Positions 21,946 to 60,068 of a stretch of DNA of 63,864 nt are shown here, in pieces. The stretch lies in NCBI GenBank assembly GCA_938034615.1, contig CALHLW010000035.1, positions 1 to 63,864 of the forward strand, in the 5' to 3' direction. Position 1 is the stretch's first letter. Every line of letters begins with the position of its first letter. Both the position numbers and the translations under genes were made by a program. This stretch comes from an uncultured Neomegalonema sp. (GTDB lineage Bacteria > Pseudomonadota > Alphaproteobacteria > Rhodobacterales > Rhodobacteraceae). Under the pieces are notes generated by a model, which made no database searches, had not been told where the DNA came from, and saw only the letters and a program-made list of their open reading frames with translations.

Positions 21946-22030
21946 GACAAACCGGCGAAAAGGAATAGATTGTTGCGAAACGCGCGATGCCGAGTCGCGC
22001 ATCCCGGTAGCGGACAGAAAGGCCCTTCCC

Positions 22031-34827: not shown

Positions 34828-34829
34828 GA

Positions 34830-36824: not shown

Positions 36825-36827
36825 GCT

Positions 36828-40504: not shown

Positions 40505-40559
40505 ACCATTGAAATCCTGGCGAGAGCAGGCACGGAGACACATTCAGAAAGGAACGGCG

Positions 40560-42137
40560 ATGACACTCTTATCTCTGAAGCACGGCTTGGCCCGGTTCGG
40601 TGCGGCAGCGTTTCTGGCGCTCGGTGCACTGACCGCCCAGCCGATGACAGCAATAGCGGGCGGCAAGTTCGTGTTCGCCAACTCATCGGCCTATGACACG
40701 CTCGACCCCCATGCGGTGTTCGACGTGGGCCGCGTCGCCTCGCGCATCAACATGTATGACGGCCTGATGCGCTGGCAGGACAATCCTCCGGTCCTGAAGC
40801 CATGGCTCGCCGAGAAGGTGGATGTCTCCGATGACGGCCTGACCTACACGTTCACGCTGCGCGATGCGAAATTCCACGATGGCTCGCCGGTCGAAGCCTC
40901 CGACGTGGTCTATTCCATCGACCGCATTCTGGAGATGAAGAAGGGGGCCTATTCGCTCTTCGAAGGCACCATCGCGATAGGATCGACCAAGGCCCCTGAC
41001 GCGAAGACGGTCGTGTTCACCCTCTCGAAGCCCTCGGCGGTCTTCCTCGCCACCGTGCCGGAAATTTACGTCGTGAATGAGGAAGTCGTGACGGCAAATT
41101 ACGACGGCGACGATCTGGGAACCACATGGCTGTCGAAGAATGGCGCGGGGTCCGGTTCGTTCAAGCTCAAACGCTACGATCCCGCAATCGGCTGGCAGGC
41201 CGAGCGTTTCGACGATCACTTCTTCGGCTGGGACATGGTCGATGACCCGCTCGATTCCATCGAGTTCCGCACCGTGGTGGAGATCAACAGCCGCGTGCTG
41301 GGCCTGATGAACGGCGATTTCCACGGCACTGACGGCTATCTGCCGCAGGATCAGGTGAAACGCCTGCGCGACAGCGACGACGTCTATGTGGATGAGCAGG
41401 AATCCATGCGGATTTTCTACTCGATCATCCATAATGGGCGCGAGCCGATGAGCGACCAGAACTTCCGCAAAGCGCTCAGCTATTCGTTCGATTACGATGG
41501 GTTCATCAATGATATCCTTTCCGGGTCGGTGGCTCGCGATCCAGTTCCGCTGCCCAACAATATGTGGGGTGCGCCAGCGGATGTGGAGGGCTACACTTAC
41601 GATCTAGAGAAGGCGAAGGAATATCTCGACAAGGTCGAGGGCGATATCCCGGAGATCACCATCGGCGCGCTTGCAGGCTATGGCCAGACCGAACAGGCCG
41701 CCGCCCTGCTCCAGAACGGTCTCAACAAGATCGGCATCAAGACGAAGATCGTGGCCGAGCCATGGCCCGTCGCCTCGGGCAAAATGCGCGACGAGGAGCA
41801 GATGTACGACCTGCTGTTCCTCTGGAAATCGACCTATTACGCCGATCCAAACAACTGGTTGGGCGAGATGTATGCCTGCGAACAGATCGGGGCGCGCAAC
41901 AACTCGTGGTACTGCAACGAGGAGGTGGACAAGCTGCTCTCGGAAGCGCGGACCAGCACCGATCAGGAACTGCGCAAGGCCAATTACGAAAAGGCCAACA
42001 TGATGCTGATGGAGGATGCCGCCGGTATCTACATCTACAACACCAAGTGGTTCGGCCCCTTCAACAAGAAGGTCAAGGGCGTGCGTTTCTCTCCCATCGG
42101 CAACGGTCAGGAGATGCGCTGGGTCTCGATGGAGTAA
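40560..42137 (+). CDS. Peptide/opine-type ABC transporter substrate-binding protein
   Basis: A 525-residue family-5 solute-binding protein. The signal peptide is MTLLSLKHGLARFGAAAFLA to about TAIAG. The mature part has the DppA/OppA landmarks FVFANSSAYDTLDPHAVFDV, LAEKVDVSDDGLTYTFTLRD and FHDGSPVEASDVVYSIDRIL. It captures a periplasmic di- or oligopeptide-like or other amine solute for the adjacent permeases. AAAGGAACG precedes the ATG. A hairpin with a T-rich tail at 42153-42180 separates it from the permease genes, consistent with over-production of the binding protein. Confidence 0.9.
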   Translation: MTLLSLKHGLARFGAAAFLALGALTAQPMTAIAGGKFVFANSSAYDTLDPHAVFDVGRVASRINMYDGLMRWQDNPPVLKPWLAEKVDVSDDGLTYTFTLRDAKFHDGSPVEASDVVYSIDRILEMKKGAYSLFEGTIAIGSTKAPDAKTVVFTLSKPSAVFLATVPEIYVVNEEVVTANYDGDDLGTTWLSKNGAGSGSFKLKRYDPAIGWQAERFDDHFFGWDMVDDPLDSIEFRTVVEINSRVLGLMNGDFHGTDGYLPQDQVKRLRDSDDVYVDEQESMRIFYSIIHNGREPMSDQNFRKALSYSFDYDGFINDILSGSVARDPVPLPNNMWGAPADVEGYTYDLEKAKEYLDKVEGDIPEITIGALAGYGQTEQAAALLQNGLNKIGIKTKIVAEPWPVASGKMRDEEQMYDLLFLWKSTYYADPNNWLGEMYACEQIGARNNSWYCNEEVDKLLSEARTSTDQELRKANYEKANMMLMEDAAGIYIYNTKWFGPFNKKVKGVRFSPIGNGQEMRWVSME

Positions 42138-42152
42138 CCCTCTGACGGTTTC

Positions 42153-42180
42153 GTGCGGCCTGTCGCGGGCCGCACGTTTT
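42153..42180 (+). terminator. Attenuating terminator after the binding-protein gene
   Basis: GTGCGGCC (42153-42160) pairs with GGCCGCAC (42168-42175) around TGTCGCG and is followed by GTTTT. Placed between the binding-protein and permease genes, it probably lets only part of the transcripts continue. Confidence 0.65.
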
Positions 42181-42227
42181 CTACGACTGGAGTATCCTGT
42201 GACCCACCTTGATCGCCTCTCACGCTG

Positions 42228-43232
42228 ATGCGCGTACTGGTCCTCATCGTCAACCGGTTGCTCTGGTTCGTGCCCACGTTGCTGGGCCTGCTAATCATCA
42301 CCTTCACGATCACGCACATTATCCCCTCTGATCCGATTGCCTTCATTGCAGGTGACAATGCGAGCGCCGAACAGATCGCGCAGTTGAAGGAAAAATTCGG
42401 CATCGACAAGCCGATCCCCGTCCAGCTCTGGAACTACATTGTCGGCGTTGCGCAGGGCGATTTCGGGAAAAGCCTCTACACCCAGCGCCCCATCGCCGAC
42501 GATCTCGTCTCCCGCTTGCCCGCGACGCTGGAACTGACCCTTGTAGCGGTGCTGCTTGCCGCGATCATCGGTATTCCGCTCGGTGTCCTTGCAGCGGTGA
42601 ACCGCAATTCATGGATCGACCACATCCTGCGGATTTTCACCGTCTCCGGCCTCGCGATTGCCGCGTTCTGGCTTGCGATCCTGTTCCAGCTTCTCTTCGC
42701 GATGGAATGGGGGCTGACGCCGTTGCAGGGCCGGGTCGATGGATGGGGACCGGATGTCGTGACCGGGTTCTTCCTGATCGATTCTCTCATCATGGGCGAC
42801 TGGGCGGTGTTCTGGGATGTCGTTCATCACATGATCCTGCCTGCCATCACCCTGGCCTTTCCGGCAATGGCAACCGTAATGCGATTCACACGTGCGGGCG
42901 TTCTCGATGCGATCAACTCCAATTACGTTGATTACCAGCAGGCCATGGGCGTACCGCGCCGCGTGGTGATCTGGCGTTACGTTCTGCGCAATGCGCTGAT
43001 CGGGACGGTCACGCAGCTTGGCCTGATCTTCGGCTCACTGATCGCAAACGGCGTGGTGGTGGAGGCGGTGTTCGACTGGCCGGGGCTGGGCCTCTATGCG
43101 GTGCAGTCGATCCTGCAATCGGATTACAATGCGATCATGGGCTTTACGCTCGTCATGGGCACGATCTTCATCATCGCGAACCTGCTGGTCGATATCACCC
43201 ATGGCCTGATCGACCCCCGCGAGGCACGCTGA
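42228..43232 (+). CDS. ABC transporter permease, DppB type
   Basis: A 334-residue inner-membrane permease. It starts VLVLIVNRLLWFVPTLLGLL with the family LxxFxxxHxxPSDP element, contains the periplasmic FGIDKPIPVQLWNYI and GDFGKSLYTQRPI segments, and the EAA loop YQQAMGVPRRVVIWRYVLRN. It forms the heterodimeric channel with the following DppC-type gene; stop and start share one base (TGATG). Confidence 0.9.
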   Translation: MRVLVLIVNRLLWFVPTLLGLLIITFTITHIIPSDPIAFIAGDNASAEQIAQLKEKFGIDKPIPVQLWNYIVGVAQGDFGKSLYTQRPIADDLVSRLPATLELTLVAVLLAAIIGIPLGVLAAVNRNSWIDHILRIFTVSGLAIAAFWLAILFQLLFAMEWGLTPLQGRVDGWGPDVVTGFFLIDSLIMGDWAVFWDVVHHMILPAITLAFPAMATVMRFTRAGVLDAINSNYVDYQQAMGVPRRVVIWRYVLRNALIGTVTQLGLIFGSLIANGVVVEAVFDWPGLGLYAVQSILQSDYNAIMGFTLVMGTIFIIANLLVDITHGLIDPREAR

Positions 43233-44089
43233 TGAAGACAGCCCTGTTCCTGCTCCGCAAGCTCGCCTCGGATCGCACGGCAGCCTTGGGCGCGTTGCTG
43301 ATCCTGATGCTCGTCGTCGCCGCCATCGCAGCGCCCGTGCTGTCCACCCATCCCGGCGACGTATCGGAGTTCCATCCGCCCGAACGCCTGCAAGGCCCCT
43401 CGCTGGAGCATTTCTTCGGTACGGATCGAATGGGGTCCGATATCTATTCGCGCATCCTGTTCGGGGCGCGCATCACGATCTCGATTGCCGTGATCGCTAT
43501 CGGAGTCTCGGTGCTGATCGGCGTGCCGATAGGCTTGATCGCAGGGTACTATCGCAACTGGGTGTCCGATGCGCTGATGCGGGTATCCGACGTCTTTCTC
43601 GCCGTGCCGCAGATCGTGCTGGCCATTGCTATCGCGCAGACACTCGGGCCGAGCATCGAAAATGTCATCCTCGCGCTCTCGGTAACGTATTGGCCCTTCT
43701 GGGCGCGGCTGGTCTATTCGGAAACGCGCTCGGCGCTGAACGAAACCTATGTGGAGGCGTCCATCGCGCTGGGGGCCTCGCCGTGGCGGGTGATGCTGCT
43801 GCATGTGCTGCCCAACATCTCCTCCTCGGTCATCGTCCGCACGACCATCGGCATGGGCGGGACGATCCTGACGGCGGCGACCTTGGGCTTCCTCGGCCTT
43901 GGCCCCCCTGCCCCGACCCCCGAATGGGGACGGATGATCGCGGAGAGCCGCGAGTTCCTGCCCGAAGCGTGGTGGTACGCTACCGCGCCGGGGCTGGCGA
44001 TCTTTCTGGTGGTGATGGGGTTCAACCTGCTTGGCGACGGGCTGCGCGACATCCTCGACCCCCGCACGCGGCGGTCTGTCGATGGGTGA
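43232..44089 (+). CDS. ABC transporter permease, DppC type
   Basis: A 285-residue permease with the DppC pattern: FFGTDRMGSDIYSRILFGAR, LIAGYYRNWVSDALMRVSDV and the EAA loop TYVEASIALGASPWRVMLLH, ending NLLGDGLRDILDPRTRRSVD. Its ATG overlaps the DppB-type stop, and its 3' end overlaps the next ATPase gene by 8 bases. Confidence 0.9.
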   Translation: MKTALFLLRKLASDRTAALGALLILMLVVAAIAAPVLSTHPGDVSEFHPPERLQGPSLEHFFGTDRMGSDIYSRILFGARITISIAVIAIGVSVLIGVPIGLIAGYYRNWVSDALMRVSDVFLAVPQIVLAIAIAQTLGPSIENVILALSVTYWPFWARLVYSETRSALNETYVEASIALGASPWRVMLLHVLPNISSSVIVRTTIGMGGTILTAATLGFLGLGPPAPTPEWGRMIAESREFLPEAWWYATAPGLAIFLVVMGFNLLGDGLRDILDPRTRRSVDG

Positions 44090-45104
44090 TGAGTTGCTGA
44101 AAGTCACCGATCTACAGGTCGGCTTTTCTACCGAAGGCGGGCTGGCGCGCGTTCTCGACCATGTGAATTTCAGCATCGATACCGGAGAGATCGTCGGCCT
44201 CGTCGGTGAATCCGGCTGCGGCAAGACCACCCTCGCCCGGTCGATCCTCGGCGTCCTGCCGAAGAATTCCGCGCGCATCGGATCGGGCGAAATTCGCTTT
44301 CAGGGCCGCAACCTGCTTGCAGAAGATGAGGCCACACTGGCGACGGAGGTGCGAGGACGACAGATTACCTTCGTCCCGCAAGACCCGTTCTCCTCGTTCA
44401 ACCCTGTCTTCACCATCGGCGCGCAGATCGAGGAGCTGATGAAATGGAAATCCCCCGCCATCGAGGCCGGAGCGCGCGTCGGTCGCTACAGCCGAACCCG
44501 GCGCAAGGAAGACCGCGAGCGGGTGATGGAACTGCTCCGTACCGTTCAGCTTCCCGATCCGGCGGCGATCCTCGCGAAGTATCCCCATGAGGTTTCGGGC
44601 GGACAGCGCCAGCGCCTCATGATCGCCATGGCACTGCTGCCAGAACCCCGCCTCATCATAGCGGACGAACCGACCACGGCCCTCGACGTCACCATTCAGG
44701 CGCAGATCCTCAAGCTGTTGCGGCGTTTGGCGACAGACTTGGGCGTCTCCGTCTTGTTCACCACCCATGATCTCGGCACGGCCTATGAAATCTGCGACCG
44801 GATCACGGTGATGTATGCGGGGCAGGAGGTCGAGAGCGCCCCGTCGGACGAGTTCTTCGCCGCCCCCGCCCATCCCTATACCGTGCGCCTTCTGCAATCG
44901 CTGCCAAGCCGGGACCGGGGGATCACCGGGATTCCGGGATCGATCCCCGGCCTGATCGCCCCGCCACCCGGATGCCGGTTCCATCCACGCTGCGACCTCG
45001 CAACCGCGGAGTGTTCGGCCACCCGACCCGGTATCACAGAGGTCGGCGCGAACCATCTCGTGCGCTGCTATCACCCCGAAACGACGACGGAGGCGGCACC
45101 ATGA
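44082..45104 (+). CDS. ABC transporter ATP-binding protein, DppD type
   Basis: A 340-residue oligopeptide-type ATPase. Walker A is GESGCGKTT, the signature VSGGQRQRL and Walker B LIIADEPTTALD; the C-terminal OppD/DppD domain carries CRFHPRCDLATAECSA, a Cys motif typical of the family and often an iron-sulfur site. It energises the two permeases jointly with the following DppF-type protein. The start ATG 44082 overlaps the permease end. Confidence 0.9.
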   Translation: MGDELLKVTDLQVGFSTEGGLARVLDHVNFSIDTGEIVGLVGESGCGKTTLARSILGVLPKNSARIGSGEIRFQGRNLLAEDEATLATEVRGRQITFVPQDPFSSFNPVFTIGAQIEELMKWKSPAIEAGARVGRYSRTRRKEDRERVMELLRTVQLPDPAAILAKYPHEVSGGQRQRLMIAMALLPEPRLIIADEPTTALDVTIQAQILKLLRRLATDLGVSVLFTTHDLGTAYEICDRITVMYAGQEVESAPSDEFFAAPAHPYTVRLLQSLPSRDRGITGIPGSIPGLIAPPPGCRFHPRCDLATAECSATRPGITEVGANHLVRCYHPETTTEAAP

Positions 45105-46072
45105 CCGATCTCCTGCGGCTCGAAGGGCTGAAGAAATACTTCCCGATCCTCAACGCCTGGAAACGGCGAACCGGATGGCTGCGCGCGCTCGATGACGTCA
45201 GCCTGACGGTCGAACGCGGCGAAATCCTCGGCGTCGTCGGCGAGTCGGGCTGCGGGAAATCCACCCTCGGCAAGACGGTCATGGGCATCCACCCCCCCAC
45301 GGGGGGCCGGATCATCTTCGAGGGCAACGACATCACCGACCTGAAACCGCACGAGTCGCGGGAATTGCGGCGTGATCTGCAATATACCTATCAGGATCCC
45401 GGTGCCTCGCTCGATCCGCGCTGGAAGATCGGGCGGTCGCTGGACGAACCGCTGGTCATCCATACCGACCTGAACCGCGCCGCCCGCAAGGAGCGGGTGC
45501 GCGAAATCCTCGCCGCCGTGGGCCTGCCGGAGGGGCATCTCGATCTCTATCCGCACGAGATTTCCGGCGGACAACAGCGCCGTGTCGGGCTGGCGCGTAT
45601 CCTGACCCTGCAACCGTCTCTTGTGGTGCTGGACGAGCCGACATCGGGGCTGGATGTTTCGGTTCAGGCGACGATCCTGAACCTGTTTCTCGATCTACAG
45701 AAACAGTTCGACCTGACCTATGTGTTCATCAGCCATGATCTTTCCGTGGTTCGCATGATCTGCGACCGCGTGGCGGTAATGTATCTGGGCAAGGTTGTCG
45801 AACTGGGCGAGACCGAAGCGGTATTCTCATCGCCGCGCCACCCCTATACCCGCTCGCTTCTGTCGGCGATTCCGATGATCGGCGAGCGGCGGATCACCGA
45901 GGATTTCTGGCTGGAGGGCGAGCCGCCCGACCCCGGCAACTTGCCCTCCGGATGCCGCTTCCGCACCCGCTGTCCGCTGGCAGAGGCCCAATGCGCCGAG
46001 GTGTCGCCGCCGTTGGTCGATCATGGCTCCGGCCACGCGGATGCGTGCCTGTTATCCGAGCGAGCGGGTTGA
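45101..46072 (+). CDS. ABC transporter ATP-binding protein, DppF type
   Basis: A 323-residue partner ATPase: Walker A GESGCGKST, Walker B SLVVLDEPTSGLD, Cys motif CRFRTRCPLAEAQCAE. The signature is altered to ISGGQQRRVGLA, a common DppF variant. The start overlaps the DppD-type stop by ATGA, completing a five-gene importer. Confidence 0.9.
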   Translation: MTDLLRLEGLKKYFPILNAWKRRTGWLRALDDVSLTVERGEILGVVGESGCGKSTLGKTVMGIHPPTGGRIIFEGNDITDLKPHESRELRRDLQYTYQDPGASLDPRWKIGRSLDEPLVIHTDLNRAARKERVREILAAVGLPEGHLDLYPHEISGGQQRRVGLARILTLQPSLVVLDEPTSGLDVSVQATILNLFLDLQKQFDLTYVFISHDLSVVRMICDRVAVMYLGKVVELGETEAVFSSPRHPYTRSLLSAIPMIGERRITEDFWLEGEPPDPGNLPSGCRFRTRCPLAEAQCAEVSPPLVDHGSGHADACLLSERAG

Positions 46073-50420: not shown

Positions 50421-53400
50421 CTATTCCTTCTCTGATGCATCGGCATCGCGAATGTGGGATGTGGCATCAATGAGATAGCCGGAAACAGTGCGGAGCAAGC
50501 TGACAGCAATCTGGGGGTCGTTCTCGATCACTTCCATCAGTTCCCGCGCCCCGATCCGCAGGCCGGTGACATCCTCGCGCACCACCAGGTTGAGCGGGCG
50601 GCGGTCGCCCCGGATAACCGACAGATCGCCGATCAGGCGCCCCGCCCGCACGAACCGCTGTTCGAATCCAAAGTTTTCGGCCTCCTCCCATGCCAATTCG
50701 GCCACGCCGCCGGTGATGAGATAGGCCGCATCCGCCTCCTCTCCCGTGCGAAAGATATATTCCCCTTCGCCCGTCTCGAACCATTGCGAGGCAAAGGCGA
50801 GCAGGCGCAGCTGCGACCGTGACAGCCCGTCGAACAGCGATACCGCTCCAAAGGCCCGGATCTTGCGGGCCAGATCGGACTGACCGGGCATGGAGCTGTC
50901 CTGTTCGGTGGGGTCTGCACCGCTGTCGATCAGCTTGCCGTCGGCGATCTCCATGACGATGTCGAAATCCTCGGGCCGCTCGACCCTCGGTTCAAGATAG
51001 ATGATGGTGCTATCCGGCAGCAGGCGGCGCACATTACCCCGGATCGCAAGCCGTTGCTTCGGTTCGAAATTGGCAAGGGCGTTTTCGAGGATCAGCACAT
51101 CGGGCCGCCGCATCGCCGCGCGGACGAAGGAAATACGTTCATGCACCCCCGGCCCAAGATTGCTGCCCCCCGCCGGGAGCATCATGTCGCCTATGAGTGC
51201 GGCCACATCGCCCCGCAGCCCCGCCTCTTCCAGAACCATGGCCATCAAATCACGCAGGCGCTCGGCATCGGTTCCGGCATTGAGCGCGATCTTACCGAAG
51301 ACGAGGTTTTCCAACACCGTCAAGCCTTCGATGAAGGTATCGGGATGGATGGGCGTAAAGACGCGCGTGCCCCATACACCCCATCCATCGGCGTGATCGC
51401 GCCGTATCTCAAGAATTGCCTCTTTCAGGTCATCCGAGAAGGCCTCCCCGATCTGCTCGGCGGAAAAGCAGAACGGCAGCGCCGCCAGCAGGCGGCTGTC
51501 GAAATCGCACAGGCCCTCGATCCCACCTGCGGCCCGGCGCTCGTCGATCCGGGCTAACCACTCGAAGACCTCGGTCTCAATGCCCAGACGGCGCAGCAAC
51601 GGATGCTCGCCCCCGACATGCTCGAACGTCACCGCGATTACGGCCAGCAGGTCGGCCCCCAGCTGCAGCGCGTCTTTCCGCAGGCCTGCATCGTCGAGGA
51701 AGGTCTCGAATCCGGGGTCGTTCGCCAGCACATCGGGTTTGAGTTTCTGCTTGGCAACGGCGTAGAGAATGTTGCCGCCGATGGCCTGACCGGGGTTGAA
51801 GCGGTCGACATCGAAAACATGGACGATCCGGTCGAGGCCCGCTGCCTTCATCAGCCTTCGCGCTTCGGGGCGCAGGGCGACGAGTTCCTCGGCCAACCGC
51901 ATGTGGCGGGTGGGATCGAAGGTGGTGGTGATGCATCGTTCGAACAGCGCCCTGTCTGTACCCAGTGTTTCGGCGATCTGCTGCCACCAAGCGATGATGT
52001 CGTCTTCGGTCTCAAACCCGCCCTGCCGCATGTTCAACCATGGCACCCCGACCGGATCAGGGCTGTTGCCGGTGCGTTTGGCTTCCACCAGCGCCGCGCG
52101 AATGGCGGGGTCGGCGGCAGCGCTGTGCGGGCAAGGGGCGGTTCGCAGCGCAAGACGGATGTTATCATCGATCCGGCCCTTGAAGAGGTAAGGCTTGTCT
52201 CCCGCGATGCCGATACGGGCGGCGATAACCCCCTGATGCAGCGTATTGAGATCGTGCTCGCCGATCATCACCCGTCCGCTTGTCGGCAGGATCGAACGGG
52301 ACAGCAATTGGACAATCGCGCGGCGCTCATAGGTATCCGGCGCATGGATCGCGAGCAGCTTCCCCTTCGGGATCGTGAAGGACAGGTCATCGAGGATCGT
52401 CCCGCCATCCGGCTCGCGCACCGTGATGTTCTCGAAAGTGATATCTCCGTCAAGACGAGGGATCGTTTCAGGTCGCCCCTCGACCAGCGCGGCATCGATC
52501 ATCCCGCGAGGAGCAAATTGTTCGATGATCGTGGTGTAGCGCAGGCTCATGTCCTGCGACTGATTGTAATAAGCGAGCAGTTCGCGCCACGGCGCAGAAA
52601 GATCCTTGTAGGCCGACAGCGCCGCGACCAGCGCCCCGATCGTCAGCTCACCATTGATGACGAGCGTGCCGCCGATCAGAAAGAAGAAGAAGGGCGTCAA
52701 CTGGGTTATCAGGTTGTTGACGAACTTCATGAAGTATTTTTTCTGGTATATCCGGTAGCGGATATCGAACAGACGGCCCAATCCTTCGGTAAACTGCGCC
52801 AGAGTATAGGGGCCTGCCCCGTTGACGCGGATATCCTCGACCCCCGCCACCGTCTCGCCGATCCGTTCCGAGAACCGCCGCACCTCCTTGACCCGCTCCT
52901 TGTTGAGCAGGTTGACCTGACGCTGAAGTTTCGGGATCAGCCATCCCTGCAACGGGATCAGCGAGATCGCCGCCAGCCCGAGCCAGAAGCTCTGGACGAA
53001 CAGGAACGCGAGGATCGTGAGCATCTGCCCGCCCTGGAACACCGGCTGGGCAATCGCGTCACCCATGATCCCGCCCAGGGGTTCGGCCTCCGACGTGACG
53101 ATGGAGACCATCTCCCCCTGCGACGTGCGCCGGAAATGCGGCAGCGGAAACCGCAGCACGCGCGAGATAAGCTGATAGCGGAACCGGCGCAGCAACCGTT
53201 CGGCCATGATGCCCTTCATCGTGTTGAGGCGCATCTTGATCAGGCCCCACACGATCACCGTCATCAGGAATGCCCCGCAGAGCACCAACAGATATTCCGT
53301 GCGCGCCAGCTGATAGCCCCATACGGCCACCGTTTCCGTCGTCGCGCTGATCGCATCGTTGATGATGATCTTGGGTAGTTCCAGCGTTGCATAGAGCACC

Positions 53401-53486
53401 GGAAACGTCAGTACCGTCAGCGCCAGCACCAGAAACTGCTGTGTGCGACTGTACCTCCAGACAAACGAGAAGAGCGTCGGTTCCAT
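50421..53486 (-). CDS. Degenerate ABC-exporter-like protein with C-terminal cyclic-nucleotide-binding-type domain
   Basis: A 1021-residue protein. Residues about 15-320 form an ABC type I exporter membrane domain. The nucleotide-binding domain starts near 345 (GDITFENITVREPDG) but Walker A reads HAPDTYERRA (381-390) with no GxGKS, the Q-loop reads AGDKPYLF, the signature is LGPGVHERIS (about 777), Walker B reads DVLILENA with Asn for the catalytic Glu (796-803), and the H-loop lacks His (YLEPRVE). About 250 extra residues (450-700) are inserted before the signature. Residues 885-1005 are a CRP-type cyclic-nucleotide-binding fold (FETGEGEYIFRTGEEADAAY; LIGDLSVIRGDRRPLNLVVR). Unlikely to hydrolyse ATP; may be a regulated pseudo-transporter. 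Confidence 0.8.
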   Translation of the reverse strand: MEPTLFSFVWRYSRTQQFLVLALTVLTFPVLYATLELPKIIINDAISATTETVAVWGYQLARTEYLLVLCGAFLMTVIVWGLIKMRLNTMKGIMAERLLRRFRYQLISRVLRFPLPHFRRTSQGEMVSIVTSEAEPLGGIMGDAIAQPVFQGGQMLTILAFLFVQSFWLGLAAISLIPLQGWLIPKLQRQVNLLNKERVKEVRRFSERIGETVAGVEDIRVNGAGPYTLAQFTEGLGRLFDIRYRIYQKKYFMKFVNNLITQLTPFFFFLIGGTLVINGELTIGALVAALSAYKDLSAPWRELLAYYNQSQDMSLRYTTIIEQFAPRGMIDAALVEGRPETIPRLDGDITFENITVREPDGGTILDDLSFTIPKGKLLAIHAPDTYERRAIVQLLSRSILPTSGRVMIGEHDLNTLHQGVIAARIGIAGDKPYLFKGRIDDNIRLALRTAPCPHSAAADPAIRAALVEAKRTGNSPDPVGVPWLNMRQGGFETEDDIIAWWQQIAETLGTDRALFERCITTTFDPTRHMRLAEELVALRPEARRLMKAAGLDRIVHVFDVDRFNPGQAIGGNILYAVAKQKLKPDVLANDPGFETFLDDAGLRKDALQLGADLLAVIAVTFEHVGGEHPLLRRLGIETEVFEWLARIDERRAAGGIEGLCDFDSRLLAALPFCFSAEQIGEAFSDDLKEAILEIRRDHADGWGVWGTRVFTPIHPDTFIEGLTVLENLVFGKIALNAGTDAERLRDLMAMVLEEAGLRGDVAALIGDMMLPAGGSNLGPGVHERISFVRAAMRRPDVLILENALANFEPKQRLAIRGNVRRLLPDSTIIYLEPRVERPEDFDIVMEIADGKLIDSGADPTEQDSSMPGQSDLARKIRAFGAVSLFDGLSRSQLRLLAFASQWFETGEGEYIFRTGEEADAAYLITGGVAELAWEEAENFGFEQRFVRAGRLIGDLSVIRGDRRPLNLVVREDVTGLRIGARELMEVIENDPQIAVSLLRTVSGYLIDATSHIRDADASEKE

Positions 53487-53977
53487 GTCGGCGGGCGATC
53501 TGCAAGAGCGATAGCAACGGGGCCGGTTTCCCGACCAAAGCGTGTACTACGGGGAGGTATCTTCCATGACAGGCCACAACCGCCATCGTCAAGCCGTACA
53601 GCGGTTTTGTCCGACGAATGACGTGATGCGGAGGTCTAAGCGAGATAGCCGATCATGACCCCAAAAGGCTCGGCAAGACGCGCTCGTCGATCGCATCGAT
53701 GCGCCCTCCAGTCGATCTTTGAAAACACCTCGTCCAGATGCCTCGCAGCGAGAACGGGAAGCGCACGGACATCCTCACCGCCAACGGACGATCTCGGGAG
53801 AAGTTTTTCTTGCCCTGATCATGGCTATACAGCCTCAAGTTGTTGTCACCCGCTCGGGGCAGCGGCGTAGTCGATCCTGAAATTTTTCCGAAGTGCCAAA
53901 ATTGGGAGATGCATTGACGTGAATTGAACTATTCTGATACATCGTTAAGTGGAAAATCTTAATGGGGAAGAATCGTC
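53487..53977. other. 491-base intergenic region
   Basis: This gap separates the divergent ABC-like and repeat-protein genes. Short frames on both strands (e.g. 53655-53870) have Arg/Ser-rich composition typical of chance reading and no ribosome sites. Apart from the promoter-like sequence at 53914-53942 I recognise nothing; it is more AT-rich near 53880-53960. Confidence 0.5.
53914..53942 (+). promoter_or_regulatory. Candidate sigma-70 promoter of the PFIADGNP/AMMECR1/MEMO locus
   Basis: TTGACG (53914-53919) and ATACAT (53937-53942) are separated by 17 bases, about 35 bases before the repeat-protein start. It is the only good promoter-like sequence seen ahead of the four-gene locus. Confidence 0.5.
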
Positions 53978-54841
53978 ATGTCCGGATTTGATGGCATCAA
54001 GGGCCATAGAGGCTTCGCCAAAAACCCTTCTAGTACCGCGGATCGTTTCGAGGCCCTCGTTAAGAAAGAACGACCTTCATCAATGCGGCTAGCCGGACAT
54101 TTCGCTGCAGGTGGAATGCTTGCGTTTGGAGCAGCATCCTGCGCTTCAGCCGACGCTCCCTTCATCGCCGATGGCAATCCGGCCCAAGGCGGAGGCAGTA
54201 TTTCCACGCCCACCACTCCGACCACGCCCGTAGAAAACCCCTTCATTGCCGATGGCAATCCACTCCAGGGCGGCGGGACTATCTACGAACCAGTTACGCC
54301 GGTAGAACCGCCCTTCATCGCAGATGGGAACCCGCTCCAAGGTGGCGGCGTAGACCCCGGACCGATCATTCAGGACGGAACGCCGATGCCGTTACCGCCG
54401 GAGCCACCCTTCATTGCGGATGGCAATCCGATGCAAGGCGGCGGGACTATCTACGAGCCAGTCGCACCGGTCGAACCGCCCTTCATCGCAGACGGCAACC
54501 CGATGCAAGGTGGCGGCGTAGACCCCGGACCGATTGTTCAGGACGGGACGCCTATGCCGCCGGAGCCACCCTTCATTGCGGATGGCAATCCGATGCAAGG
54601 CGGCGGGACTATCTACGAGCCAGTCGCACCGGTTGACCCACCTTTCATCGCCGACGGAAATCCGATCCGGGGCGGAGGGACTATCTACGAGCCAGTCGCA
54701 CCGGTTGACCCGCCCTTTATCGCGGACGGCAATCCGATCCGGGGCAACGGATCGAGCATGGGGCCGGCCACTCGGGATGACTCGCCTAAAACGGCTGAAA
54801 ACGGGCGCGCAGACTTCTGGAAACAGTTCAGGCGCTCCTGA
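53978..54841 (+). CDS. Repeat protein with eight PFIADGNPxQGGG units
   Basis: A 287-residue protein I cannot assign to a family. A basic N-terminus of about 37 residues precedes a hydrophobic signal-like stretch (RLAGHFAAGGMLAFGAASCA), perhaps a signal peptide with an atypical lipobox at AASC or cleavage after ASADA. From residue 61 there are eight PFIADGNP units, each followed by a QGGG- or RGxG-type ending. The spacers are mainly TIYEPVxPVx or VDPGPIxQDGTPMPxE, in roughly alternating order. The tail is charged (DSPKTAENGRADFWKQFRRS). GGGGAAG precedes ATG 53978. It lies 58 bases before the phosphoribosyltransferase/AMMECR1 gene, same strand. It could be an envelope protein or a multi-unit substrate of the neighbouring enzymes. 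Confidence 0.75.
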   Translation: MSGFDGIKGHRGFAKNPSSTADRFEALVKKERPSSMRLAGHFAAGGMLAFGAASCASADAPFIADGNPAQGGGSISTPTTPTTPVENPFIADGNPLQGGGTIYEPVTPVEPPFIADGNPLQGGGVDPGPIIQDGTPMPLPPEPPFIADGNPMQGGGTIYEPVAPVEPPFIADGNPMQGGGVDPGPIVQDGTPMPPEPPFIADGNPMQGGGTIYEPVAPVDPPFIADGNPIRGGGTIYEPVAPVDPPFIADGNPIRGNGSSMGPATRDDSPKTAENGRADFWKQFRRS

Positions 54842-54899
54842 TGGGGATGCCGCTGTGTTTGCTATACGGTGTTAAGGGTGTTTGCTTACTCTGGCTTCC

Positions 54900-57512
54900 A
54901 TGAGTGAAGCCCGTCCCACGATCCGTCGGTCGCCCGAGGAAGGCGATCGACGTAAAGCATTGCTCCGCGAGATCACCCGGCATGGCGTGACCCATGGCAC
55001 CGAAGACAAGCCGATTATCTCCCGAGACGGACGGCTTGGTACGAGTTGGGTGATGAGCTTTCTGGGCGTCGGCCTGCGCGACCCGTGGCTTTCCGATGCC
55101 TGCGACCTGTTGCTGGAACGCCTGAAGGGCTTCGAGGGCAAACAGCTTGCGACCATGGGATTGGGCGCGTCTTCGCTGCTGACGGGCTGCGTGCTGCGCT
55201 CAGAGGGTCTCTATAACGGCCTGATCGTCCGCGAGGCCGCCAAGTCGCATGGCTCCGGCAAACAGATCGAAGGGCTGCCCGACCCGAGCGAACCGGTCGT
55301 CATCATCGACGATGCCATCGGCACCGGACATTCCGCCCTGACATGCGCGAAAATACTCGAAGAGAACGGCTTCGAGGTCGAGGGCGTCCTCTGCGTAGTG
55401 CGGTTCACCTATGACAGCGGGTTCGGGCTGCTGGAGGAAAACGGATATCGGGTTTCCGCCCTCTACGACGTCTATGACGATCTCGTCCCGATGCTGGAGC
55501 CGGAGAACCGGCCCGACCCCGACCCGCTGCGGGCGAAGGATATCGTCTGGCGCGACGACGCGGCAGCAGACGGGTTGAGCCCGTTCGCACTGGCGCGGCT
55601 TTATCTGCGGGGGGCCCTTGCTGAAGGGGCGATGCCCCGACCACCCCGGTCCCTCGTCATGTCCTTGCCCTGCGAGGGTGGCCTGTGGGTCAGCATGCGC
55701 CGGATCGACACGGGCGCATCGGTGGCCCGCATGGGGTTCTGGGTGTTTCCCGGCGAAACACCGCCCTTCGCACCAGAGGCCCTCGCTGAAGCCTGCTGGA
55801 TGCTGGCAAAACGGGTGCCGAAAGGAGAAAACGGGCTTGCATGGCTGGATTCCTGCGGGCTGGCCCTGTCGGTGTTCGGCCCGCTGGAAACCTGTGCCGA
55901 AGGCGATGTCGACAATGCCCGCTTCGGCCTCGTCGCCCGCAGCCGGGAGCGCCCCTGGGCCATCGGTTCGGCCTTGCCCGATATGCCCGGCATTCAAGGG
56001 GATGGTCATCAACTGCGCCATGCCTTCCACGTCAACGGAAAGATCAGAGCACTGGAGCCTTTCGCGCTCTATCGCCACAGCGTCGAGAAGCTGATCGAGC
56101 CGGGCGCCCCATGGCCCCCGCGTGGCGTGTCCAAGCCCGCGCCGGTGTTGCCCGAAGACCGCGATGCGACAGCGGGCATCCTGATCGAGCGGGCGCGCGG
56201 GATACTGGAGGGCGCGCGATCCGAAAGCGATGACGTGTTCCTGCCGGGCGCGGAATACCTGTTCCTGTCGCTCTATACTACATCAGGTCAGGCCGCCTGC
56301 GTCGGACGCTCCTGCCGCACTGTCGCCGAGTTCGATGCGTTGGTGCGGGCTGCGGCAAGCGACCCGCGCGTAACGGGGCATGAGCGACGCGATCTGACCC
56401 TGCGCCTGAGCGTTCTGGAGGATGGTTGGAGCCAACACGGCACGCCCCCGGCTTTCTGCGCCGGTGTCGATGCCTTGAGCCTGACGGATCAAGGGCGCGA
56501 GTCCATCCTGTTGCCTGAAGTCGCGATAGACGAAAATCTCGATGAAGAGGGGTTTCAGGCCCTGTTGCTGGCCAAGGCAGGCGTGGCACAGAATGACCGG
56601 CAAATCTGGCGGTCCCTGCGTGTGACATGCTGGGATGAGGGGCGCGTATCGCCGTCGACTCCCAGTTTCCGGGTCGCGCAGAACACCCTGCCCCCCGACC
56701 GGCGTGAAGCCGCCGCAGGGTGGGCGCGCTGGCTCGGGGCCAATATCCTGCAAGACACCCTGCCCGAGAGCCTGCTGCCTCTCAGCGGCGAGCGGTTGTG
56801 CGTCGCGCAGACGGGACTGCGCGATGCGGCGATCTGGCGTGTGGCGCAAGTGGAGGCAGAGTTCGACCTCGACCCCCATGCCGTGCCGCAAACGCCGGTC
56901 TACGGATTACTCCACCGTGAAGCGCGGCGGGCGGCACCGTCTTCGGGAATTAATACATTGGCGACCGCGATCCTGACCGCGCGGCCCTTCCCGGATGCCC
57001 GCACGGAACCGGAGGCGTTCTGGCTCGCCCTGCGCGCCCTCGCCAGCGCGTCGGAAATCACCGCTCCCGATACATTCGCCGCAATCCTGAAACGCGCACA
57101 GCGCCGTCTCGACGCCCCCACCTTGCCGGGCGAGCGCCTGCTGCGCCTCACCACGCTCTGCGCGCTGATGAAAAAGGGGCATCTGGATAGGCGCGATATC
57201 ATCGAGTGCGATTCGCGCTGGGCGCAAGCCTCGATCTCGGCGGCGGGCCTGTTCATCACGGCGCAGAAGGATATCGAGGAAACCCTGATGACGGCTCAGG
57301 CGGCGGAGGCGATGGCGCTCGCCGCCCCCCTGCTCGATCGGGCAGATCTGTCGGGTACCGCCGCGCGCTGTCTGGACGCACTCACCGCCCTGAGCATCAC
57401 CACGCCGGAGGGCGGCGCGGTCGTGCGTTCATCCGAAGTACAGAGCGGCGCGCATACCGGCCACACGGTCGCGGCACTGGGGGCCTATGGGGCATGGATG
57501 GGCACCTCATGA
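54900..57512 (+). CDS. Phosphoribosyltransferase-like / AMMECR1-domain fusion protein
   Basis: An 870-residue multidomain protein. Residues 1-200 look like an orotate-phosphoribosyltransferase-type domain with the PRPP loop VVIIDDAIGTGHSA (133-146). Residues about 245-400 resemble a diverged AMMECR1 domain (GLWVSMRR, GLALSVFGPLE, FGLVARS, ALPDMPG, ALYRHSVEKLIEPG). Residues about 420-580 are a clearer AMMECR1 domain (AEYLFLSLYTTSGQAACVGR, AASDPRVTGHERRDLTLRLS, ILLPEVAIDENLDEEGFQAL, AKAGVAQNDRQIW). The last 290 residues are helical and unassigned. The stop overlaps the MEMO gene start (ATGA). ATG 54900 is the assumed start; TTG 54882 with a near AAGGG is possible. AMMECR1 function is unknown; the PRTase fusion is unusual. 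Confidence 0.8.
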   Translation: MSEARPTIRRSPEEGDRRKALLREITRHGVTHGTEDKPIISRDGRLGTSWVMSFLGVGLRDPWLSDACDLLLERLKGFEGKQLATMGLGASSLLTGCVLRSEGLYNGLIVREAAKSHGSGKQIEGLPDPSEPVVIIDDAIGTGHSALTCAKILEENGFEVEGVLCVVRFTYDSGFGLLEENGYRVSALYDVYDDLVPMLEPENRPDPDPLRAKDIVWRDDAAADGLSPFALARLYLRGALAEGAMPRPPRSLVMSLPCEGGLWVSMRRIDTGASVARMGFWVFPGETPPFAPEALAEACWMLAKRVPKGENGLAWLDSCGLALSVFGPLETCAEGDVDNARFGLVARSRERPWAIGSALPDMPGIQGDGHQLRHAFHVNGKIRALEPFALYRHSVEKLIEPGAPWPPRGVSKPAPVLPEDRDATAGILIERARGILEGARSESDDVFLPGAEYLFLSLYTTSGQAACVGRSCRTVAEFDALVRAAASDPRVTGHERRDLTLRLSVLEDGWSQHGTPPAFCAGVDALSLTDQGRESILLPEVAIDENLDEEGFQALLLAKAGVAQNDRQIWRSLRVTCWDEGRVSPSTPSFRVAQNTLPPDRREAAAGWARWLGANILQDTLPESLLPLSGERLCVAQTGLRDAAIWRVAQVEAEFDLDPHAVPQTPVYGLLHREARRAAPSSGINTLATAILTARPFPDARTEPEAFWLALRALASASEITAPDTFAAILKRAQRRLDAPTLPGERLLRLTTLCALMKKGHLDRRDIIECDSRWAQASISAAGLFITAQKDIEETLMTAQAAEAMALAAPLLDRADLSGTAARCLDALTALSITTPEGGAVVRSSEVQSGAHTGHTVAALGAYGAWMGTS

Positions 57513-58303
57513 GTGGGATGCGCCCGATGGCCCATGCAGGGGTCTTCTATCCGCAGGCCCCGGAGATTCTGCGGGCCATGGTCGCGCAGCATCTCAACCG
57601 CGCCCGACCCAGCTTTGGCCACCCCCGTGCCATCGTCGCCCCCCATGCGGGCTGGGCGTATTGCGCGCCGGTGATGGCAACCGCGTTTCGGGCAGTCGCG
57701 GGGCTGGAGCGCGTGGACCGTCTGTTGCTCGTCGGACCATCGCATTACGATCCGGTCGCGGGCGTCGTGACCACAGAGGCGGAAGCATTCGAGACGCCCT
57801 TCGGGTCAGCCCCGGTCGATCAGGCTGCGCTTACAGGCATTCCGGTCGATGCCGATGCCCACGCAAAGGAACATGCGCTGGAGGTGCATCTGCCGTTTCT
57901 GCGCGTGTTGTTCCCCGACAGCCCCATTGTGCCGTTGCTTGTCGGCGAGGCTGCGCCAGAGGGGGTCGCCGATCATCTGATGGCTCTGGGATGTGGCGAT
58001 AATGGCGTGCTGACGGTCATCAGTTCCGACCTCGCCCATTATCTGCCGGTGGATCGCTTGCGAGTGACAGACCGCGAGACCCTGCGCCAGATCGAGGCAG
58101 GCGATTACGGCACGTTGGGCGTCGAGCGGGCCTGCGCTGCCCCCGCCCTGAAAGGTCTCGGCGTGGTTGCACAGCGCCTCGGCCTCAGGGCAGCGGCGCT
58201 CGATCTCAGCGACAGCACGGCGACCGCGGGTGCAAACCCGCAAAGCGCGGTCGGCTACGCCGCCATCGCCTATTACGGAGCCGATGGAGGGAGCGTCCCA
58301 TGA
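57509..58303 (+). CDS. MEMO1-family protein (AmmeMemoRadiSam system protein B)
   Basis: A 264-residue protein with the MEMO landmarks: AHAGVFYPQAPEILRAMV, AIVAPHAGWAYCAPVMATAF, LLLVGPSHYDPVAGVVTTEA, HAKEHALEVHLPFLRVLFPD, TVISSDLAHYLPVDR and SAVGYAAIAYYG. The conserved histidines in PHAGW, GPSHY and SDLAHY match the metal-site histidines of the MEMO/LigB fold. The family is usually encoded beside AMMECR1 and a radical-SAM enzyme; here AMMECR1 is the overlapping upstream gene and no radical-SAM gene is present. Start and stop both overlap neighbours by 4 bases. Confidence 0.92.
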   Translation: MSGMRPMAHAGVFYPQAPEILRAMVAQHLNRARPSFGHPRAIVAPHAGWAYCAPVMATAFRAVAGLERVDRLLLVGPSHYDPVAGVVTTEAEAFETPFGSAPVDQAALTGIPVDADAHAKEHALEVHLPFLRVLFPDSPIVPLLVGEAAPEGVADHLMALGCGDNGVLTVISSDLAHYLPVDRLRVTDRETLRQIEAGDYGTLGVERACAAPALKGLGVVAQRLGLRAAALDLSDSTATAGANPQSAVGYAAIAYYGADGGSVP

Positions 58304-59016
58304 GCACAGCCTTGACCCCGAATGGACATCGCGATCTTTTCCATGCCCATGACCTCTACGGCATATTCGCCACCCTGTTTCGCGATGGGTATTTCCTGAC
58401 CAATATCGGCGAAACGTCAGACGAATCCCTTCAGCAGATCGCGCGGTTCTTCGGCACCGCATGGCACGAAGACGCAGCAGTCATGACTATCGAGAAGAAA
58501 GAAGACCCCCGCTTCGTCGGCCATTCGGACGGCTTGATCGAGGCCCATAACGAATGCGCCTACGCTCCCCATCCGCCGCGCCTGCTCGCGCTCTATTGCG
58601 TGGAAAACGAGGCAGAGAACGGCGCGTTCTTCGTCGTCGATCCCGTTGCGTTGATGCCCGCCATCGGCCAGCACTACCTGCCCTCCCTGCGCGGGGCGCG
58701 CTATGCCTGTCAGGTCACGCAGGATGTGGCCCCGGTCGAGACAACGCTGATGCGGAAAACGGCACTGGGGGAGCGCATCGTGTTCTCGTCGATCGGTGGG
58801 GCGGCGGGGGCGTCGATCTACAGCCTGACATCCCCGACCGACGCCCATTCGGCGTCCCTCGTGCCGCATCTCAACGCGGTGCTGAACGATCCGGCAAACC
58901 GCAGGACGCATCGTTGGCAACGGGGAGACTTTCTGGTGATCGACAATCTGCGGCTGATGCATGGCCGCGAAGCGTTCAGCGGTCATCGGGTCTTGCGGCA
59001 CCTGCGCTTGCGCTGA
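58300..59016 (+). CDS. Fe(II)/2-oxoglutarate oxygenase, TauD/clavaminate-synthase-like
   Basis: A 238-residue oxygenase. The facial triad is His83-x-Glu85 (IEAHNECAYAPHPPRLLALY) and His221 (LVIDNLRLMHGREAFSGHR), and Arg230 would bind 2-oxoglutarate. HxE in place of HxD is typical of the clavaminate synthase / AsnO / VioC branch, which hydroxylates amino-acid side chains such as Asn and Arg. It overlaps the MEMO gene by ATGA and is the last gene of the locus. No partner for free-amino-acid metabolism is adjacent, so a protein or peptide substrate is possible. Confidence 0.85.
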   Translation: MSTALTPNGHRDLFHAHDLYGIFATLFRDGYFLTNIGETSDESLQQIARFFGTAWHEDAAVMTIEKKEDPRFVGHSDGLIEAHNECAYAPHPPRLLALYCVENEAENGAFFVVDPVALMPAIGQHYLPSLRGARYACQVTQDVAPVETTLMRKTALGERIVFSSIGGAAGASIYSLTSPTDAHSASLVPHLNAVLNDPANRRTHRWQRGDFLVIDNLRLMHGREAFSGHRVLRHLRLR

Positions 59017-59189
59017 AACCGGCATTGCCAGAAAGGTTGGCAATTGCCGCCGTCGCCATTAGTGGGAAATAGAGCAGCGGGCGGCTTGCCTCTCGGCCTG
59101 CGAGCGCCGTACCCTATGGTACAACGGTGAACCGTTGACCGAACAAAAGCAGCGTAACCCGCAAACCGATATTTGAGTTGGAGACACGA

Positions 59190-60068
59190 ATGACCGCAAT
59201 AGGATTTATCGGCTTGGGCCTTATGGGAAACGCCATGGTTTCCCGGTTGCTCGACAAGGGCTACGATCTGACGGTACTGGCAAACCGCAGCCGCACCAAT
59301 GTCGAGGCCGCCATGGCTCGTGGTGCGAAAGAAGCCGCGTCCCCTAAAGCGCTTGCGGAGGCGAGCGACGTCGTCATGCTGTGCGTCGACACGTCCGAAA
59401 GTGTCGAAGCACGGATGCGCGGTGCCGATGGTATCATCGCAGGGCTGAAGCCCGGTGCGGTCGTCATCGACTTCGGAACGTCACTGCCCGCATCCACCCG
59501 CACACTGGCGCAGGAAGTCGCACAGGCCGGAGGAACGTATCTGGATGCCCCGCTTGGCCGGACCCCGCAACATGCGTTCGACGGGTTGCTCAATATCATG
59601 TGCGCAGGCGACAAAGCCGCATTTGACCGCGTCGAGCCGGTACTCAAGGATTTGGGCGAAAACGTCTTCCACCTCGGGGCATCCGGATCGGGACACACGA
59701 TCAAGCTGTTGAACAACTTCTTCGGCATGACCGTGGCGAATGCGATGGCAGAGGTCATGGCAATCGCGGATCGCGCGGGCATCGAACGAAAACAGGCTTA
59801 CGATGTCATCGCCGCCGGTCCACTGCATTCCATGATGATGGATTTCGTCGCCGCTTATGGCATCGACGGCGACTCATCCAAACTGGCGTTTTCCATCCAG
59901 AATGCGGCCAAAGACCTTGGGTATTATCGTCAGATGACGAGAGATGCGGGAGTTGAAAGCATCATGGCCGTCCCCGCCGCAGAAGCGATGGCCGATGCGT
60001 CCGACACCATGGGCGACCGCATGGTCTCGGAGATGATCGACTACTACACGAAACGGTTCGAGGGTTAG
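59190..60068 (+). CDS. 3-hydroxyisobutyrate-dehydrogenase-family NAD(P) oxidoreductase
   Basis: A 292-residue beta-hydroxyacid dehydrogenase: IGFIGLGLMGNAMVSRLLDK nucleotide fold, substrate motif YLDAPLGRTPQHAFDG (usual DAPVSGG altered to DAPLGR), and the catalytic lysine region GSGHTIKLLNNFFGMTVANA. Relatives reduce tartronate semialdehyde, glyoxylate, succinate semialdehyde or 3-hydroxyisobutyrate; the substrate cannot be fixed. TTGGAG precedes ATG 59190. Its TAG stop lies within the end of the inverted-repeat element at 60065-60170, so the native C-terminus may have been altered. It is separated from the oxygenase by 173 bases in which I see no other feature. Confidence 0.85.
   Translation: MTAIGFIGLGLMGNAMVSRLLDKGYDLTVLANRSRTNVEAAMARGAKEAASPKALAEASDVVMLCVDTSESVEARMRGADGIIAGLKPGAVVIDFGTSLPASTRTLAQEVAQAGGTYLDAPLGRTPQHAFDGLLNIMCAGDKAAFDRVEPVLKDLGENVFHLGASGSGHTIKLLNNFFGMTVANAMAEVMAIADRAGIERKQAYDVIAAGPLHSMMMDFVAAYGIDGDSSKLAFSIQNAAKDLGYYRQMTRDAGVESIMAVPAAEAMADASDTMGDRMVSEMIDYYTKRFEG

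Follow-up and report, generated by a model that had tools for sequence, protein, structure and literature searches.

The window analyzed here, a 63,864-nucleotide contig stretch from an uncultured Neomegalonema sp., contains four genes that, as the original prediction stated, all lie on one strand (53978-59016, plus strand). They encode, in order, a 287-aa repeat protein, termed REP, which is a candidate precursor or substrate (53978..54841, plus strand), an 870-aa PRTase/AMMECR1 protein (54900..57512, plus strand), a 264-aa MEMO protein (57509..58303, plus strand) and a 238-aa TauD-family Fe(II)/2-oxoglutarate oxygenase (58300..59016, plus strand). The last three genes overlap by ATGA, as had been noted, with the PRTase/AMMECR1 stop meeting the MEMO start at 57509..57512 and the MEMO stop meeting the oxygenase start at 58300..58303 (both plus strand). 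The promoter-like site proposed for the unit was not recovered among sigma-70 sites: a consensus scan for this promoter type over 53487-59300 found none (shuffles average 1.2). Another genome of the genus, a metagenome-assembled genome (MAG) labelled Neomegalonema (L066), and a Bugula neritina symbiont belonging to the Gammaproteobacteria (L067) have homologous loci.

Enzymes encoded at the locus

The 870-residue protein begins with an orotate-PRTase-like domain (residues 1-215; 54900..55544, plus strand) with the PRPP loop VVIIDDAIGTGHSA. The orotate-PRTase model TIGR00336 matches at E = 3.3e-13 and 49.8 bits, under its 106.8-bit cut-off, and orotate PRTases in the PDB match down to E = 7e-15. 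The domain retains the HG-x(4)-IEG loop and the PRPP loop of orotate PRTases, the latter being a type I phosphoribosyltransferase loop with its two acidic residues (VVIIDDAIGTG aligns to orotate PRTases); in L067, the first loop has Tyr in place of His and Asp in place of Glu. Residues 421-580 (56160..56639, plus strand) form an AMMECR1 domain that matches Pfam PF01871 at E = 1.5e-5 and 25.0 bits, exactly the gathering score; this family matches all three homologues (best 9.4e-7). The domain aligns to canonical AMMECR1 by hhalign (probability 96.2, E = 2.7e-9) and retains the Cys-x-Gly of the AMMECR1 signature, while TIGR04335 (AMMECR1 protein A) was not reached (23.3 bits, cut-off 99).

Both parts of the predicted PRTase/AMMECR1 fusion are present, but a simple two-domain make-up is unlikely: the protein probably consists of the PRTase, two AMMECR1-like modules and a helical C-terminal region. 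For residues 216-420 (55545..56159, plus strand), the probable first module, no sequence similarity to AMMECR1 was found, and the assignment comes from a low-pLDDT model aligned to 1vaj, 1zq7 and 1wsc (VIA-align Z 9.7, 9.7 and 7.9; next entry 4.5 among the matches listed). We take 1vaj and 1wsc to be AMMECR1 proteins, and 1zq7 is matched by the window AMMECR1 region at E = 0.0013. The same model, which spans 375 residues (pLDDT 50.0), also gave Foldseek matches to 1zq7 and 1vaj (E 6.3e-5 to 7.9e-4, rmsd 3.8-10); the full 870-residue model was poor (mean pLDDT 43.6). Because VIA-align gives one alignment per entry, and the second module, AMMECR1 by sequence, drew common folds with Z no higher than 4.5 among the matches listed, the tandem arrangement, with its low-confidence model of the first module, is tentative. 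The C-terminal 290 residues (581-870; 56640..57509, plus strand) are helical, and no family was found for them.

The predicted MEMO1 homologue was confirmed by TIGR04336 (182.7 bits, cut-off 26) and also matches PF01875 (128.3 bits). H46, H79 and C209, iron ligands by comparison, are present together with D174 and H177, and these three ligand positions are invariant in all three variants and in 31/31 canonical MEMOs. The human MEMO1 ligands are given as H49, H81 and C244 in PMC11081632; because the human MEMO1 alignment ends short of the last of these, C209 is equated with C244 on the basis of the motif. The same source describes MEMO1 as binding iron much as an extradiol dioxygenase does, with dioxygenase activity not found.

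The fourth gene product was correctly predicted to be an HxE-type 2-oxoglutarate oxygenase (PF02668, E = 2.9e-23, 83.6 bits), with the metal triad H83-N-E85 and H221 intact and invariant in 3/3 homologues. Its solved TauD-family relatives PvcB, TmpA and carbapenem synthase act on small molecules, and a published superfamily analysis reportedly tied MEMO to nucleotide-base and isoprenoid modification. Together with a PRTase that best matches orotate PRTases and retains both loops, these points favor a small-molecule pathway, in which the PRTase would convert a pyrimidine-like base into a nucleotide for oxidation by MEMO and the oxygenase, the AMMECR1 modules would bind this nucleotide and REP would serve as an exported partner or carrier. 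We regard such a pathway as unlikely, since it leaves unexplained why the PFIADGNP peptide of REP is unchanged between Alpha- and Gammaproteobacteria and lies ahead of the enzymes each time.

The repeat protein

REP comprises a leader-like region (residues 1-60; 53978..54157, plus strand), delimited by hydropathy and by alignment with the homologue in L143, and a repeat region (54158..54736, plus strand) with eight PFIADGNP units and two QDGTP motifs (pattern matches at 54161-54735). The eight PFIADGNP copies are exact, in agreement with the original prediction. Asp-Gly dipeptides number 11 in each of three REPs, the window's included, against 3.1 (window), 3.3 and 1.3 expected from composition. 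At the DNA level, the eight window copies show a mean of 3.46 differences over 24 bases, and all these changes are synonymous, which argues that selection holds the peptide. The motif is letter-identical across Alpha- and Gammaproteobacteria, while the accompanying enzymes are 44-59% identical. Low-complexity repeat proteins may also be conserved for structural reasons, a point against reading REP as a RiPP-like precursor.

All eight matches to the FIADGNP pattern in the window genome fall inside REP, and within the genus the pattern occurs in 3/14 genomes, always inside a REP gene. Elsewhere in the phylum, it was found once each in two of 397 other genomes, in each case antisense to a long frame belonging to the same kind of gene. 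Single matches in each of 25 viral contigs were put down to chance, and one weak REP match on a plasmid beside cas1/cas2 was tentatively attributed to a repeat array or to composition.

The N-terminal region is less uniform. Residues 1-60 of the window REP have a polar N-terminus, a moderately hydrophobic stretch at 42-58 and an AxA ahead of the first repeat, and they align with L143; the L066 homologue (4440-5618) shares only MS-F...G-RGF...T...F..L. It also has just two PFIADGNP units, other Asp-Gly forms and no stretch of hydrophobic residues; neither leader nor core is therefore uniform among REPs. Judged from hydropathy and alignment, the earlier description of REP as secreted-looking applies to the window and L143 at most and fails for L066, and a signal peptide was dropped as a defining feature. 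The L143 homologue (8400-8666), from a third congener (G776), has the REP start on a contig that ends inside the repeats, and no MEMO was found in that genome. The L067 homologue (3-341) has lost its start at the contig start.

Distribution and relation to AmmeMemo loci

Three loci carry the enzymes: two come from the genus, in drafts of which one is a MAG, and the third from the symbiont assembly. The four-gene order is the same in the window, L066 and L067, with REP first in each (its start missing in L067). As in a RiPP biosynthetic locus, a putative precursor with leader and core regions, REP, is encoded next to putative modifying enzymes in conserved order, the L067 leader being lost at the contig start. 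The three operon MEMOs form one clade with support of 100/100, and this grouping of alpha- and gammaproteobacterial sequences suggests horizontal passage of the operon between the two classes. Their stem to the canonical MEMOs spans 1.2 changes per column, a distance that suggests a changed substrate.

Co-inheritance was limited to the unit itself. No gene beside it is common to the window, L066 and L067, on the basis of 13 chosen window genes and then all frames of at least 100 aa; other frame pairs were distant common-family matches away from the window operon (34% to L066, 26-31% to an L067 SDR), and tblastx of the loci gave long runs from the operon only, with short scattered pieces with linked E-values elsewhere. 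Neither a cognate protease nor an exporter belongs to the conserved unit. The ABC transporter adjoining the window operon has close orthologues (64-73%) in 4/13 congeners, but nothing else of the window matched in the stretches fetched around them, so no empty insertion site could be defined.

Broader searches indicate that the four-gene combination is rare within what was searched. A first contig profile search with the window protein alone gave no relatives; a second, with a two-sequence alignment and looking for two short peptides only, gave two loci, one of which (L068) is the L066 contig. More distant relatives may therefore have escaped these searches. Matches occurred in 87/390 genomes of the window's order, the best besides the window's own at 25.4 bits and nearly all over the PRTase stretch. 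In the Bugula symbiont's order, only the symbiont itself matched (1/48), and in its class, 95/369 genomes matched, full-length only in the symbiont and over the PRTase stretch alone in the others. Plasmid records matched the PRTase/AMMECR1 protein (eight, over 7-13% of its length), MEMO (three) or the oxygenase (one, 24.6% identity), a plasmid DNA search gave no match, and viral contigs gave none with two queries, one being the two-sequence alignment. Among the literature matches listed, several of the lists being partial, the combination was not described.

Patchy distribution and likely horizontal transfer would also suit a conflict or defence cassette with a PRTase effector and sensor proteins. 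The three PRTase proteins weakly match PADLOC PRTase_III-A (19.4-21.4 bits), and on a Rhizobium plasmid, a MEMO-PGA_cap protein is encoded amid TIR-STAND and CHAT genes. However, the PADLOC match spans the PRPP-binding stretch only, none of the PADLOC models matches MEMO, the oxygenase or REP at E <= 0.01, and Pfam detected neither a nuclease nor an NTPase nor any further defence domain in the four window proteins. These proteins also gave no model match to a reverse transcriptase, a trait of type III-A retrons. We consider this explanation highly improbable and dropped it, given the 19-21 bits confined to the PRPP-binding stretch.

AMMECR1 and MEMO are poorly understood proteins that range from archaea to humans, and archaeal controls gave matches in the searches. 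A search for their radical-SAM partner found no TIGR04337 in the window genome (0/1) or in those of L066 and L067 (0/2), an absence that is not final as all are drafts. The model scored above cut-off in 50/60 other alphaproteobacterial MEMO genomes and did not reach it in the remaining 10/60, so the absence here is no special proof. Order conservation and the lack of TIGR04337 in the three drafts support the proposed distinct AmmeMemo subtype; a functional replacement of the radical SAM enzyme by the oxygenase, and its action on REP, are hypothetical. Alternatively, the oxygenase could have replaced the radical SAM step of an ordinary AmmeMemo pathway whose product is not known, with REP as a co-inherited structural or surface protein. 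MEMO and AMMECR1 occur together with no radical SAM found, and the 10/60 genomes suggest that the system may manage without its third partner or exchange it. This reading appears improbable to us, as REP belongs to the conserved unit in all three loci and the long MEMO stem suggests a changed substrate.

A candidate protein-maturation operon

We favor a horizontally mobile, RiPP-like protein-maturation operon, a reading of the gene content and sequences to which we give about even odds. REP would be the precursor, with a leader followed by many short Asp-Gly cores (PFIADGNP, with QDG and LDGN forms too). The HxE Fe(II)/2-oxoglutarate oxygenase would hydroxylate these cores, most likely at the Asp before Gly, and the PRPP-binding AMMECR1 protein and iron-binding MEMO would act on REP or build a group put on it. 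The O2-dependent oxygenase would take the slot of the radical SAM enzyme in ordinary AmmeMemo loci. Within this scheme, REP is probably the substrate of the operon enzymes, the Asp is a doubtful candidate for the modification site, the roles of PRTase, AMMECR1 and MEMO in maturation are assigned with low confidence and the chemistry is a guess. A new class of multi-core RiPP-like modification run by the AMMECR1/MEMO pair on REP, with a PRPP-dependent step and Fe/2OG hydroxylation instead of radical SAM chemistry, is plausible, if somewhat short of an even chance. It is not apparent what the PRTase would contribute to peptide hydroxylation, and its orotate-PRTase-like domain fits a nucleotide pathway equally, which speaks against a RiPP-like reading, as do the small number of loci, the non-uniform REP leader and core, the lack of a protease or exporter in the conserved unit and the G776 genome with a REP start but no MEMO found. 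The four window proteins gave no significant Pfam or NCBIfam match to a known RiPP-class enzyme or peptide-recognition domain.

The operon ties AMMECR1 and MEMO, present in humans too, to a genetically encoded, testable candidate substrate with a strictly conserved motif. If correct, this reading would make REP the first assigned substrate of a pair with a very wide distribution, and would suggest that a protein or peptide is modified by canonical AmmeMemo systems too. The locus would further offer a natural case of an O2-dependent oxygenase standing in the usual place of a radical SAM enzyme.

Several known systems share parts of this arrangement. AmmeMemoRadiSam loci (AmrA AMMECR1, AmrB MEMO and AmrS radical SAM; TIGR04335, TIGR04336 and TIGR04337) likewise encode MEMO and AMMECR1 together, with the same MEMO metal-site residues. 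In canonical alphaproteobacterial loci, AMMECR1 is fused to or adjoins MEMO (30/30 loci fetched), whereas the operon AMMECR1 sits within a PRTase protein and the operon adds an Fe/2OG oxygenase and a repeat protein. The orotate phosphoribosyltransferase PyrE shares the PRPP and HG-x(4)-IEG loops but lacks the fusion to AMMECR1 and a helical region seen in the 840-870-aa operon proteins. With PvcB, TmpA and clavaminate-synthase-like TauD/TfdA members, the oxygenase shares the family profile and distal His region; it differs from PvcB in having HxE rather than HxD, and from TauD/TfdA relatives in its short length (238 aa) and linkage to a repeat protein.

CinX is an Fe/2OG hydroxylase. It provides a precedent, as it hydroxylates Asp15 of the cinnamycins, in which the conserved stretch ends in CDGxTK (PMC12837462). 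Cinnamycin-type lanthipeptides (CinA/CinX) resemble the operon in an Asp in Asp-Gly context beside an Fe/2OG hydroxylase gene and in a leader ending in an AxA site, as in the window and L143; the likeness to CinX considered here is one of substrate context only. Unlike these systems, the operon has no lanthionine synthetase match (Pfam/NCBIfam), no Cys in REP cores and many cores rather than one. Graspetides differ in core chemistry and in their ATP-grasp ligase, for which the operon has no match (Pfam/NCBIfam), but the multi-core microviridin precursor AMdnA, as described in PMC5934393, carries several cores in one polypeptide, like REP, and provides precedent for one enzyme handling a multi-core precursor.

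A conserved four-gene unit

The window carries four same-strand genes as a unit at 53978-59016, in agreement with the original prediction: a repeat protein gene, REP (53978-54841, +), a PRTase/AMMECR1 gene (54900-57512, +; AMMECR1 PF01871 and an orotate-PRTase-like region, TIGR00336), MEMO (57509-58303, +; TIGR04336 profile match, 182.7 bits) and a TauD-type oxygenase gene (58300-59016, +; TauD profile match, 83.6 bits), the last three joined by ATGA overlaps. This MEMO occurs in two of 14 genus genomes, the window's own counted, and the second, G774, carries the four genes in the same order on its contig L066. Two peptides from the two-sequence alignment, scanned against the GTDB species-genome collection, recovered the L066 contig again (an uncultured Neomegalonema sp. 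MAG with the same sequence) and one further locus, L067, from Chromatiales bacterium (ex Bugula neritina AB1). Here, REP is cut by the contig start and the order is again that of the window, so both loci bear out the predicted conservation of gene order in related genomes. Identities to the window for L066 and L067, respectively, were 49% and 45% for the PRTase/AMMECR1 protein, 48% and 44% for MEMO and 54% and 50% for the oxygenase.

Comparison of all frames of at least 100 aa revealed nothing common to the three loci beside the unit. Between L066 and L067, the three enzymes were the sole common frames (at least 100 aa, low-complexity filter on, REP unmatched); the REP of other loci does match the window in separate window-gene comparisons. 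Far from the operon, at 21896-23509, the window has one additional frame distantly related to a frame of L066 (34%), and three distant places in the window hold relatives (26-31%) of an SDR-like frame from L067. A REP start in a third congener, G776 (contig L143, 8400-8666), runs off the contig inside the repeats; MEMO was not found in this draft genome, and the enzymes may sit on a missing contig.

Elsewhere, the window encodes a 1,021-aa ABC exporter (50421-53486, -) whose C-terminus carries a cyclic-nucleotide-binding domain; its ATPase domain falls under the Pfam cut-off and seems interrupted by a long insert. The exporter is conserved in 4/13 congeners (64-73% identity). Two hydantoinase/oxoprolinase A-B gene pairs (30243-38870, -) are followed by a peptide-type ABC transporter set (40395-46072).

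Domains and active sites of the enzymes

In the 870-aa PRTase/AMMECR1 protein, the stretch that aligns to orotate PRTases is residues 1-215, and it takes in both the HG-x(4)-IEG and the PRPP loop (TIGR00336, E=3.3e-13, under cut-off). The PF01871 match scores 25.0 bits, equal to the gathering score, and is made independently by each homologue (3/3). It is residues 421-580 that represent AMMECR1 (hhalign to canonical AMMECR1, probability 96.2, E=2.7e-9; PDB 1zq7, E=0.0013). Residues 216-420 have no sequence similarity to AMMECR1; because their low-confidence model aligns with 1vaj, 1zq7 and 1wsc (Z 9.7, 9.7 and 7.9; next entry 4.5), the protein likely, though not securely, has AMMECR1-like modules in tandem. 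The predicted fusion stands in that both domains are matched, while its simple two-part layout gives way to a likely second module. Residues 581-870 look helical and gave no family match. The PRTase part is conserved at 59-64%, a level that drops to 32-44% by the C-terminus. In a rival reading, REP is a partner in a small-molecule pathway of a nucleotide-like kind.

The variant MEMO keeps H46, H79, C209, D174 and H177, positions invariant in 31/31 canonical MEMOs; human MEMO1 is reported to bind iron via H49, H81 and C244 (PMC11081632). S52C and Y60F are among the changes specific to the variants, both falling where canonical MEMOs are invariant. All three oxygenases contain H83-N-E85 and H221, and PvcB and TmpA are among the nearest solved relatives by sequence.

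Inheritance and radical SAM partners

In a tree of 34 MEMOs (3 variant, 30 canonical alphaproteobacterial and 1 from an Ideonella plasmid), the variants formed one group (100/100 support, stem 1.2), within which L066 paired with gammaproteobacterial L067 (97/91) and not with the congeneric window. Enzyme identities gave the same ordering by small margins (L066-L067, 49.8, 50.2 and 58.8%; L066-window, 48.7, 48.2 and 54.4%). Because both place L066 with L067, they suggest that the unit moved horizontally, the alternatives being a misbinned MAG contig and an old duplication.

The original prediction had an oxygenase in place of radical SAM, and a search with TIGR04337 found no such partner elsewhere in the window genome or the other two locus genomes (0/3, all drafts). 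MEMO was present in 61/385 sampled class genomes, the window's own counted; among the other 60, TIGR04337 was above cut-off in 50 and at E<=0.001 in 53. Lack of radical SAM is unusual, not unique, since 10/60 did not exceed the cut-off. AMMECR1 was fused to or adjoined MEMO in all 30 canonical loci drawn from those 60 genomes. A further rival is an otherwise ordinary AmmeMemo pathway in which one enzyme has been swapped and REP is incidental.

Six small-genome alphaproteobacteria of the class sample (G435, G559, G654, G461, G577 and G748; families f47 and f73) have MEMO and no radical SAM above the TIGR04337 cut-off, and are maybe a further radical-SAM-free AmmeMemo type. A Rhizobium leguminosarum plasmid (L032, CP050083.1, 11779-13530) encodes MEMO fused to PGA_cap (PF09587) among TIR-nSTAND-WD40, CHAT and AAA genes, another unusual MEMO context that may lie in a conflict island.

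The repeat protein and known systems

Window REP contains eight PFIADGNP units of one peptide sequence, written with 2-3 codons per residue and differing at 3.46/24 bases on average. In L066 REP, PFIADGNP occurs twice, alongside several LDGN forms; the units of L067 REP read PFIADGNPQQVIQDGPAQPTS. The count of DG dipeptides is 11 in each of window, L066 and L067 (3.1, 3.3 and 1.3 expected, respectively), an equality that is chance because L067 REP is incomplete. All eight occurrences of the FIADGNP coding pattern in the window genome lie in REP; elsewhere, single copies appeared in 2/397 other phylum genomes. Both stray matches (L144 and L145, near 4550) lie opposite a long frame of one gene kind, which we take to be SWIM-like from its CxC...CxH pattern. 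The window and L143 leaders are closely alike (MSxFDGIKGHxGFAKN..., a hydrophobic stretch and AxA); that of L066 resembles them loosely.

A defence cassette would be a third rival, with a weak PADLOC match in its favor. The preferred reading is that REP is probably a leader-guided precursor with many cores, whose Asp-Gly cores the oxygenase would oxidize, the PRPP-binding AMMECR1 protein and MEMO carrying out further steps. Multi-core precursors are described as known but rare (PMC5934393).

We found no description of the four-gene combination in the open-licence literature among the matches listed; PMC7159879 mentions Memo-AMMECR1 systems of the canonical kind. Two features that define the three-part AmmeMemoRadiSam system, the TIGR04335 score and radical SAM, are lacking in the unit, which is therefore classed as a variant rather than a member. 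With RiPP loci it shares genomic layout, REP being a putative precursor and candidate for modification. In cinnamycins, CinX is reported to hydroxylate Asp15, which lies in a conserved stretch with CDGxTK at its end (PMC12837462); the parallel between cinnamycins and the REP unit would be one of functional analogy only.
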